A stretch of 64,000 bases of DNA, from NCBI RefSeq assembly GCF_020382885.2, contig NC_058506.1, positions 3,100,001 to 3,164,000 on the forward strand, given 5' to 3'. The DNA comes from Scatophagus argus. Taxonomy: Eukaryota > Chordata > Actinopteri > Scatophagidae. A program made the position numbers and the translations under genes. Shown in pieces: positions 36,101-37,599 of the stretch (positions within the stretch are counted from its first letter, which is position 1; every line of letters starts with the position of its first letter). Under the pieces are notes generated by a model. It was not told the DNA's origin, made no database searches, and saw only the letters and a list, made by a program, of their open reading frames with translations.

Positions 36101-37599
36101 TGGCCCTGGATTGTCCTCTGCTCCCCTTTCCCTCCCAGTCGTCATAATCACACATGTCTAATCTTATCAAACCTCAGCTTTATCCTTGCCAATCAGCTCC
36201 TGGGCTGCGCTCTTTTCCACCACTTGCTCTCCTGATTCAATTATATACTGTCTTACTCCCCACCCCCTGCTCTTACCCCATGTTCCCTCTTTTTCTCCAT
36301 CTTTATCTTGTGCTTTCCCTTGTCATGGCATTAGGGTCAACCTTGACCCGTCCAAGCGCCAGGGCTCAAACAAATCAGTCTCGGGTTGTACTCTTCCACA
36401 AGGATCAAAAACAGTTAGTAAGTTCCCATGTCTCTCGCTTCTTTCTTGTCTCCCTGTGCTGCTTGATCTGCTTGCCTGGTCACACGGGAATTTGCTCAAG
36501 TCCGTGAATGTCTGCCTGACTGTATGCCTGACTTCATATGTCTGTCTTTGAATTATTGCTTGTCTGCATGACTTCATATGGTCAAGGTCCCACAAACTTG
36601 GTTTCGAGCATGGTTGCAGTCAAGGAAGATTCATGTGATTGTTGGTTTTAATTTTCAGTTTCAGGATCATTGTCATCATTGGCTGGCTATAACAAGCCTG
36701 TTATGATCCTGTGCATAAATTTCCCCTTACAAATGGTGTTTCATGTTTTTGTTTCATATTTGTTTTTGATGGGCTGTAAAGCCATTTAATGTTTATTCCA
36801 TATTGTTGGGGAGAACGTATGGAATGTGTAGTGCTATATACTGAAGCGATTAAAGGTCAAAAAGTGCATTTCTGTATGCATGATTCAAAAATTGTGAGTG
36901 AGAACATAGGAAAGTGCATTCATGTAAAGTGAGGACACAATGTTCTGCACATGACGTGCTTGTCATTGTTGATGCTCGCTTGGTCTCGCTGAATGCCATC
37001 TCATCTGAGATTTGTGGGTTGGTTGTAAGGCTTGTTGTACTCTGGTGGATTACCTCTTCCCTCGTGTTTGCCTTACAGGGTCACAAATGAATCTGAGGGA
37101 ATCAGGAGATTTGCGGTCACAAGGTCAGTGCACGTGTTCCAGATGCGTTGACAGCACTTAGAAAGTAGATGATCATTTATTTCTATTTTCAGCGATGAGA
37201 CTAGTAGTAGGAGCCGTGATTCAATGCCTGAACTTTTTTTGTATTTTTTCCCCTCTCCATAGTTGCCATCTACCTGGGTATCAAAAAACGTCCGAGCCCC
37301 GGGCCGTCGGACGTGGCTGGGATCTGAGAGGCGGCGGGCGGCGGGACCCTGCGGAGGTGGTACTGGCTCTGCGGGAGGCAGCGCTTGGATGTGGCTGCCA
37401 GGTCCACCATGCCGGCCCCTTTCTGCTCTCCTGCACCCACGGCGTGGCAGGGGGCCGCGTGGCTTTTGAGGCCGAGGTGTGCCATCTTTCCACAGGCACC
37501 TCCGAGACTTCTAACGGGGTGCGCTACACGCGACTCTGGGGGGCACCGCTAGCTTTTCGGGACATTGCCACCCAGATCTCTAAGGACCTTGAACTTTGA
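15113..37599 (+). CDS. mark4: MAP/microtubule affinity-regulating kinase 4
   Basis: Ser/Thr kinase of the AMPK-related MARK/Par-1 family, which phosphorylates tau and MAPs at KXGS motifs and loosens their grip on microtubules; in mammals it is activated by LKB1. Coding exons: 15113-15166, 17611-17808, 18714-18767, 24723-24771, 25098-25163, 27680-27750, 27845-27901, 28500-28736, 30341-30460, 30556-30655, 30819-30928, 31657-31843, 32207-32418, 33419-33522, 34296-34580, [36335-36417 alternative], 37079-37123, 37263-37599. Without exon 16 it encodes about 761 aa. Kinase domain about 59-310: P-loop GKGNFAKV (66-73), Lys88, HRD Asp181, DFG Asp199 and activation-loop Thr214 ([10 protein letters not shown]). 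UBA domain about 327-371, then a Ser-rich spacer and a KA1 domain ending KDLEL. The start [13 protein letters not shown] resembles the human one. The spacer motifs [10 protein letters not shown] and [12 protein letters not shown] and the tail mark it as MARK4, not MARK1-3. All phases join without a break. Intron 8 uses a GC donor; intron 3 is about 6 kb. Which fish paralogue this is cannot be said. Confidence 0.96.
15563..15588 (+). repeat. (CTG)8 trinucleotide repeat in mark4 intron 1
   Basis: Eight CTG units with a final CCG, about 400 bp after exon 1 within the CpG-rich shoulder of the promoter. Likely polymorphic. Confidence 0.85.
16067..16088 (+). repeat. (TG)n microsatellite, mark4 intron 1
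   Basis: Eleven TG units. A second (TG)n run of similar length lies at 16479-16504 in the same intron. Confidence 0.9.
16479..16504 (+). repeat. (TG)n microsatellite, mark4 intron 1
   Basis: About thirteen TG units. Confidence 0.9.
19775..20635. repeat. AAGTC-rich interspersed repeat in mark4 intron 3
   Basis: Both ends of the segment (19775-19860 and 20490-20635) are crowded with CAAGTCTCAAG/AAGTCTCAAGTCA units. The right end runs into GACTTGAGAACGCCACCTCTG, in the style of a hAT-type inverted end. The same AAGTC-rich sequence is familiar from many fish genomes. The middle is unlike the ends and may be an insertion. The left end could not be fixed. Confidence 0.5.
22188..22209 (+). promoter_or_regulatory. 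Candidate RFX X-box next to a CRE half-site, mark4 intron 3
   Basis: GTCGCTATGGCAAC (22188-22201) is close to the palindromic RFX X-box GTTGCCATGGCAAC, and TGACGT (22204-22209, a CREB/ATF half-site) follows two bases later. The surrounding 200 bp (22020-22220) is richer in CpG than the rest of the intron, which suggests an enhancer or internal promoter. Motif evidence only. Confidence 0.4.
23230..23534 (+). mobile_element. tRNA-derived SINE, copy 4 (diverged, deleted)
   Basis: Same family as copy 1 but lacking the first bases of the head and about 50 nt of the body: the GAGTGTGAGAGTGTGTG block is lost and the CAGTCCAGG-to-GCTCCAGC stretch is shortened. The B box carries one change (GGTTCAAATCC). 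It ends in a short ATGG tail at 23534. No clear target duplication was found, so this is probably the oldest copy here. It lies in mark4 intron 3. Confidence 0.8.
24225..24480 (-). mobile_element. Retroposon 3' end with (TTA)n tail, mark4 intron 3
   Basis: Read on the minus strand it ends AAAAGTGCTATATAAATAAAG followed by (TTA)n, the familiar 3' tail of a widespread fish LINE/SINE group, preceded by a T/A-rich unit with GTGAATCACTTTGTAACTGTG. The 5' end is unclear (24480 to 24600). Confidence 0.55.
25330..25435 (+). repeat. Fragment of the GCTAAGCTAAGC-family repeat, mark4 intron 5
   Basis: CTTTGGACAGAACCAGGCTAGCTGCTTCTGTC followed by AGACATATGAGAGTG is a partial match to the family seen better at 27376-27592. 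Confidence 0.4.
27376..27592 (+). repeat. GCTAAGCTAAGC-family repeat, mark4 intron 5
   Basis: The best copy in the window. It has GCTGATTTTGTTACCTTGGGA, then TTTTATGCTAAGCTAAGCTAA, then ATGAGAGTGATATCAATCTTCTC and ATTTCCCTAAATGTCAAACTAT, in the order known from many fish genomes. It sits directly after an (ATT)n run at 27355-27375. Confidence 0.65.
28737..28742 (+). promoter_or_regulatory. mark4: Non-canonical GC splice donor of mark4 intron 8
   Basis: Exon 8 ends ...AACCTGAAG (28736) and the intron begins GCAAGT. The next exon starts after TTGCGTACAG at 30341, and the kinase reading NLK-ELRERV is unbroken only with this junction. Apart from the C at +2 the donor matches consensus perfectly (AAG/GCAAGT), as is usual in GC-AG introns. 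No in-frame GT nearby preserves the conserved protein. Confidence 0.85.
31141..31146 (+). terminator. Candidate intronic polyadenylation signal in mark4 intron 11
   Basis: AATAAA is followed 18-40 nt later by a GT-rich element (ACAGTGTGTGTTTAATGTTG). It lies 30 nt after an in-frame stop (31109-31111) that would end a transcript reading through the exon 11 donor. Together these could give a short mRNA encoding only the kinase and UBA regions. Weak evidence: AATAAA is common in AT-rich introns. Confidence 0.3.
32783..33135 (+). mobile_element. tRNA-derived SINE, copy 5, mark4 intron 13
   Basis: Starts at GGTGCAGTGG (first bases of the head missing), has an intact B box and body and an ATGG tail. 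It is bracketed by a 14-bp target duplication ATATCTTTTCCACT at 32769-32782 and 33136-33149, the longest of the set. It inserted on the sense strand of mark4. Confidence 0.9.
35175..35440. repeat. Fragments of the GCTAAGCTAAGC-family repeat, mark4 intron 15
   Basis: 35175-35240 matches the reverse orientation (GTCAATACCACTTTCATGTC, AAATATGAAGCTATAGCCAG). 35395-35440 matches the forward orientation (TTAAGCTAAGCTAATT). These are two opposed fragments or one rearranged copy. Confidence 0.5.
36335..36417 (+). CDS. mark4: mark4 alternative (frame-shifting) exon 16
   Basis: An 83-nt exon between CATTAG and GTAAGT. Read on from exon 15 it gives [19 protein letters not shown] and then TLPQGSKTV, which matches the family sequence of the short MARK4 isoform. 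Its length is not a multiple of three, so inclusion moves exons 17-18 into a second frame: [15 protein letters not shown], then [20 protein letters not shown], with a stop at 37325-37327. The product is about 698 aa and lacks KA1. Skipping it gives the long isoform. The upstream intron end is CU-rich over about 100 nt. Confidence 0.88.

Follow-up and report, generated by a model that had tools for sequence, protein, structure and literature searches.

Can one short stretch of coding DNA be held in two reading frames at once, and does either frame govern the other? This question is raised by the 3' end of mark4 in the fish Scatophagus argus, where exons 17 and 18 can be read in two frames depending on one cassette exon. 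The window, that is, the whole 64-kb stretch of DNA analysed, holds the entire coding region of this teleost gene on the + strand (Table 1). Its exons were located by tblastn with a MARK4 protein query. The introns are GT-AG throughout, except for a GC donor 3' of exon 8 at 28737 (AAG/GCAAGT), the only non-GT donor among the 17 mark4 introns. The longer predicted form (L, 761 aa) matches Pfam PF00069, PF00627, and PF02149 and thus has the kinase, UBA, and KA1 architecture, and the shorter predicted form (S) has 698 aa. Of the proteins fetched, those that match best over the full length share 93–98% identity, and several of them bear the name MARK4. Exons matching creatine kinase lie downstream, so mark4 sits next to a creatine kinase gene, as human MARK4 does next to CKM. 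Elsewhere in the 64-kb window, no tandem repeats scoring at least 80 and no tRNAs were found. A dispersed repeat forms a 185-nt family (2457-2641, 4711-4895, and 8890-9074; 83–100% to the reference copy), with a related translation at 62697-62996 and a 300-nt pair at 98%, and is probably a mobile element or segmental copy. An open frame on the + strand at 53141-53428 has no Pfam match, and its translation looks like the beginning of an F-box protein of the sugar-binding type.

Table 1. Features of the mark4 locus, with positions numbered along the window.
Feature	Position	Strand	Details
mark4 coding region	15113-37599	+	18 coding exons
mark4 exons 1-15 (kinase, UBA, spacer)	15113-15166 to 34296-34580	+	tblastn, splice sites, in-frame join
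Cassette exon 16	36335-36417	+	83 nt (2 mod 3); flanked by ATTAG and GTAAGT
Tandem donor GTAAGT of exon 16	36418-36425	+	second GT at 36422
Exon 17	37079-37123	+	45 nt, read in L or S frame
Candidate exon 18 extension	37193-37262	+	acceptor TTTATTTCTATTTTCAG/CG, pyrimidine-rich; 70 nt = 1 mod 3
Dual-coded start of exon 18	37263-37327	+	L and S readings; S stop TGA 37325-37327
Exon 18, L reading to KA1	37263-37599	+	Pfam PF02149; 3ose/1ul7 sequence matches; AlphaFold model, Foldseek
Creatine kinase exons	41725-42156, 42443-42724	-	Pfam PF00217

When exon 16 is skipped, exon 18 is read from CHLPG to KDLEL with the stop ending at 37599, giving a MARK4L-like tail with KA1. When exon 16 is included, the reading moves to the +1 frame and gives a MARK4S-like tail that ends in DVAGI. 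The preliminary description had proposed this switch of exons 17 and 18 by an 83-nt exon, and its coordinates and both translations proved correct; its S translation had the right sequence and the stop at 37325 but left off the final I. It had also likened both tails to those of mammalian MARK4L and MARK4S, which the database sequences bear out, and had called the isoforms known in mammals, where the same exon 16 event is indeed described for human MARK4 (PMC9355243). NCBI annotation includes both isoforms for many fish species, and the exon 16 peptide occurs in S tails from fish to mammals; the homologue isoforms used here are mostly database predictions. The two frames share 110 nt, comprising 45 nt of exon 17 and 65 nt of exon 18, more than the 60 nt by which dual-coding splicing is defined. 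Because the S frame lies at +1 relative to L, with S position 1 falling on L2, S2 on the L wobble, and S3 on L1, an L-synonymous wobble change almost always alters S, and most S-synonymous changes alter L.

The L part of exon 18 was modelled as a KA1 domain with a mean pLDDT of 76, and the KA1 structures of MARK3 and MARK1 came top in Foldseek. In this model the overlap is mostly a low-confidence linker (the first 16 residues) followed by the first strand, and residues 18-22 of exon 18, counted from 37264, form the only strand within it. For the S tail, neither Pfam nor the PDB yielded a relative at the thresholds used, and its conservation consequently marks an unexplained function. KA1 domains of the MARK family act in membrane binding and kinase autoinhibition (PMC6890249), and the S form, judged from its sequence, would have lost this function. 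The S form is described as predominant in brain (PMC12027440). The S stop sits in the last exon, so the S mRNA should escape NMD, and both mRNAs are presumably made in Scatophagus argus with tissue regulation.

The weak splice sites flanking exon 16 are consistent with a regulated cassette. On a score matrix built on 16 sites, the lowest of the 17 donor scores is that of exon 15 (1.8 bits), the exon 16 acceptor (-0.6) is the second weakest acceptor, and the exon 16 donor (2.7) is the third weakest donor, but other, presumably constitutive mark4 sites are about as weak, namely the exon 14 donor (2.6) and the exon 12 acceptor (-2.4). Two TGCATG motifs in intron 16 (36565 and 36877) had been considered as RBFOX sites for neuronal inclusion; this case was dropped because such motifs do not exceed chance expectation (P = 0.08).

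The S and L protein tails together determine nearly every base of the overlap, and we inferred the overlap DNA of other vertebrates as the DNA that encodes both tails together. The S and L pair of the window returns its true DNA save for a few two-fold ambiguities. Over all 36 S codons, 22 of 23 pairs are jointly encodable (15 same-species pairs including the window and seven cross-species pairs, one with an unnamed L), and the sole failure combines the macaque S tail with a platypus L tail that had no matching S tail in the set. As cross-species pairs can also be encoded, passing the test does not strictly tie two tails to one species. Across 21 reconstructions, with Mandrillus left out because it duplicates macaque, the variable sites number 27 of 35 at L1/S3, 11 of 35 at L2/S1, and 10 of 35 at L3/S2. 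The corresponding minimum changes are 39, 12, and 11, placing 39 of at least 62 at the S wobble. The S wobble is therefore free and the L wobble slow, which is not the pattern of an L-dominated region, where variation would be greatest at L3.

The protein comparisons show the same asymmetry. Between the window and macaque, the overlap is identical at 28/36 residues in S and 15/36 in L, with 19/26 in the single-frame exon 16 and 38/87 in KA1. Over the first 35 residues of the S tail, 27 are identical, compared with a mean of 10.4–10.8 (sd 2.3–2.4) expected if only L were conserved; this expectation comes from codon draws under three codon usages, each of which reached the observed value in 0 of 4000 draws. 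The observed S identity was likewise never reached by L-only evolutionary simulation in any of 24 tests (eight pairs at three divergences, with 345–429 runs each), so that constraint is found in all eight pairs; codon usage and divergence were assumed values in these tests. Among the best 120 of 179 matches listed, the S tail has hardly changed across two teleost types, Amia, sturgeon, lungfish, amphibians, reptiles, birds, and mammals. The S reading is under strong constraint and dominates everywhere tested. Stops in the second frame of other fish had been named in advance as grounds for rejecting a dual-frame reading. None of 79 distinct L tails, from fish and others and representing 168 of 336 proteins selected by a text pattern, forces an S stop, which is weak, protein-based evidence; L-only simulations force one in just 3–8% of runs. 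Seven of the 79 tails, with altered exon 17-18 junctions, score low downstream, and the platypus L tail allows 28 of 35 S residues.

For the L frame, we simulated constraint on S only and asked how often the L identity reaches the observed value, with divergence expressed as substitutions per site. The preliminary description had held that the 110 nt were constrained in both frames since the fish-tetrapod split. The S half of this claim stands in all eight pairs, but the L half is not supported for the window against macaque, axolotl, and sharks, whose simulated p values span 0.21–0.97. At divergences of 1.0, 1.5, and 2.5, the p values are 0.82, 0.49, and 0.21 for macaque (15/35) and 0.89, 0.63, and 0.32 for axolotl (14/35), and they range over 0.47–0.97 for sharks (13–14/35). 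In every evolutionary simulation, the L overlap of the window is thus no more similar to those of tetrapods and sharks than S constraint by itself would make it. Saturated codon draws give 0.11–0.13 for window-axolotl and about 0.3 for window-shark; for window-macaque they give 0.11 when drawn from the window S tail and 0.004–0.023 when drawn from the macaque S tail.

These values raise the alternative that the overlap is effectively S-only in the window lineage, and perhaps more widely, with L-frame exon 17 and early exon 18 serving as a passive linker, which we consider slightly likelier to be true than false. Besides the simulations, it gains from the structure model, which has a single strand and a low-confidence start in the overlap, and from S-fourfold third positions, which are identical at only 6/14 sites for window-macaque and 5/14 for window-axolotl, compared with 16/17 for macaque-hawk (macaque-axolotl, 11/16). 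What speaks against it within the window lineage is that VTSCHLP and one W are kept in L from window to macaque, with the low codon-draw values from the macaque S tail given above, and that L identity to the B-type teleost (21/35) lies beyond S-only expectation at 1.5 and 2.5 (p = 0.015 and 0.002), though not at 1.0 (0.15). Basal and B-type teleosts are intermediate in L, with codon-draw p from <1/1500 to 0.075 and simulated p of 0.08–0.59 for Scleropages-macaque and 0.013–0.31 for B type-macaque.

The wider version of this alternative meets its main difficulty in tetrapods and sharks, where L identity in most tetrapod-shark and amniote pairs lies beyond S-only expectation at divergences of at least 1.5. 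At 1.0, 1.5, and 2.5, the simulated p values are 0.054, 0.006, and 0 for macaque-axolotl (24/35), 0.078, 0.005, and 0 for hawk-axolotl (24/35), and 0.089, 0.015, and 0 for macaque-Heptranchias (22/35). Nine axolotl-, macaque-, and anole-shark pairs give 0.059–0.32, 0.010–0.088, and 0–0.018 as divergence rises, the shark simulations assuming that shark S diverges by 3–8 residues. Among amniotes, macaque-hawk (28/35) gives 0.099 at 0.5, 0.019 at 0.7, and 0 at 1.0 and above, and at 0.5, 0.7, 1.0, and 1.5 macaque-anole (24/35) gives 0.49, 0.18, 0.048, and 0 and hawk-anole (27/35) gives 0.23, 0.044, 0.012, and 0. The tests in tetrapods fade at low assumed divergence, which again favours an S-only overlap, and L exceeds S-only expectation among tetrapods and to sharks only under an assumed divergence of at least about 1–1.5 neutral substitutions per site. 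S-only constraint is rejected for macaque-axolotl and macaque-shark by saturated codon draws, the most generous of the tests, which for the exon 17 part alone give p of about 0.08 for axolotl-shark (8/15). A firmer case for tetrapod-shark L constraint, based on saturated draws (22/35 against 10.6), was weakened by the evolutionary simulation. Tetrapods and sharks probably keep the L reading under constraint too, although this is not secure.

Taken as a whole, the locus is, with high confidence on our part, best explained as a mark4 isoform switch with an S-dominant overlap whose L reading has drifted in this lineage. Exon 16 would act as a cassette with weak splice sites in a teleost C-terminal switch. 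Its skipping leaves exons 17 and 18 in the L frame through to the KA1 end, and its inclusion replaces KA1 by the short conserved tail in an mRNA expected to avoid NMD. Of the two readings, S constrains the shared nucleotides most.

The switch in fish may not be strictly two-way. Splicing that restores the frame, whether within intron 17 or through the exon 16 donor, could yield a form with both exon 16 and KA1, although we regard this as rather unlikely. Loose text patterns assigned 23 of the 336 fetched proteins to a class with exon 16, S-frame exon 17, and KA1, mostly through frame-restoring inserts, and seven to a class with exon 16, L-frame exon 17, and KA1 (four bony fish, two sharks, and one rodent); the same patterns scored 19 proteins with L-frame exon 17 as lacking KA1, most of whose tails end KA1-like. 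Most of the S tail is read through before KA1 in P0029, and other fish have frame-restored models, for example P0082 and P0100. In the window itself, a candidate acceptor at 37193, followed by an open frame that continues into KA1, would restore the KA1 frame after exon 16 (812 aa predicted). The second GT of the tandem donor would give an 87-nt exon 16 that keeps the L frame (790 aa predicted), and the fish models P0160 and P0162 read KTVSKV[TA]NESEG, matching use of this +4 donor, which however scores poorly (-4.9). The inserted peptides mostly differ between species, as model artefacts or splicing noise would, which keeps our confidence in the third form low. The protein models nevertheless suggest that inclusion of exon 16 need not cost KA1.

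How old the overlap is depends on sharks. In the shark proteins P0297 and P0323, the exon 16 peptide is joined to L-frame exon 17, a join that fits a putative acceptor lying 8 nt into exon 17 (83-8=75 nt). Of 35 S residues, three shark L tails are compatible with 31, 30, and 31 in axolotl and with 30, 29, and 30 in macaque. Codon-level L-only simulation gives 0.0000–0.020 against axolotl and 0.011–0.040 against macaque over 18 tests, so S constraint in sharks is only suggestive; an initial null of random residue swaps (p up to 0.0005) was dropped as too generous. No shark S protein is among the best 120 of 179 matches listed. The exon 16 peptides and the 30–31 permitted axolotl residues would fit an overprint older than the jawed vertebrate split. 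On this basis, one could picture the S frame overprinting the KA1 linker before that split and becoming the master frame. Percomorphs would later have eased the conflict by freeing the L linker and by gaining splice forms that join KA1 back on behind exon 16, through intron 17 or the exon 16 donor; we consider this history unlikely.

It is quite improbable that the frames are kept for RNA reasons, such as splicing enhancers or structure, and for neither protein tail. The macaque-hawk identity at the S wobble could stem from RNA-level selection, but the changes track the S codon rhythm, which is not expected of RNA elements, and a search for an Rfam element was dropped since none matched at the gathering score. 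That the second frame is open by chance and exon 16 is a decoy can be dismissed with near certainty because, although an open S frame is itself weak evidence given that 217 of 600 35-codon +1 windows in exons 1-15 are also open, fish-mammal S identity is far above L-only expectation and the S-tail core occurs in 91 of 336 fetched proteins (one search being aimed at the S tail).

The human switch, the fish annotations, and the dual-coding class were already known, and what appears to be new is the asymmetry with its lineage dependence, as read from DNA derived from proteins. A full-text search of the open-access literature, outside which most subscription journals lie, found no paper on MARK4 as a dual-coding gene, and a less than thorough literature search found none on S and L isoforms of MARK4 in fish. 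Inferring DNA from two isoform proteins is usable for other annotated dual-coding genes. At this locus, one reading of 110 nt is near-constant from fish to mammals and the other shows two-frame constraint relaxing in one lineage. MARK4, the kinase that carries the S tail, acts in cell polarity and is studied in tau phosphorylation.

In human MARK4L, exon 16 is lost and the stop is shifted, giving 752 aa compared with 688 aa (PMC9355243). Fish mark4 shares with human MARK4L and MARK4S (Q96L34-1 and Q96L34-2) the exon count, the skipped exon, its effect on the frame, and tails homologous in both frames; as in the human-type switch, its exon 16 is not a multiple of three, and the protein ends in KA1 when that exon is skipped and in the short tail when it is included. 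It differs in an exon 16 peptide one residue longer (KTVR compared with human KIR), a diverged L overlap (15/36), and possible additional frame-restoring forms. Frame-breaking splicing is sometimes taken as noise, but a class of non-triplet dual-coding splicing has been described in which an event whose length is not a multiple of three recodes at least 60 downstream nt and resists NMD, with higher wobble conservation in the dual-coding regions of C. elegans (Nat Commun 2026, PMC13247117). The 110-nt overlap and the S stop in the last exon of mark4 resemble this class, the main text of which does not name MARK4, and here depth and frame asymmetry are measured at one vertebrate locus. The mark4 overlap adds a deep and asymmetric case to a kind already known. 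In INK4a/ARF, two proteins are also read from one exon in two frames and evolve asymmetrically; there the frames are switched by separate first exons, whereas fish mark4 switches frame by a cassette exon.
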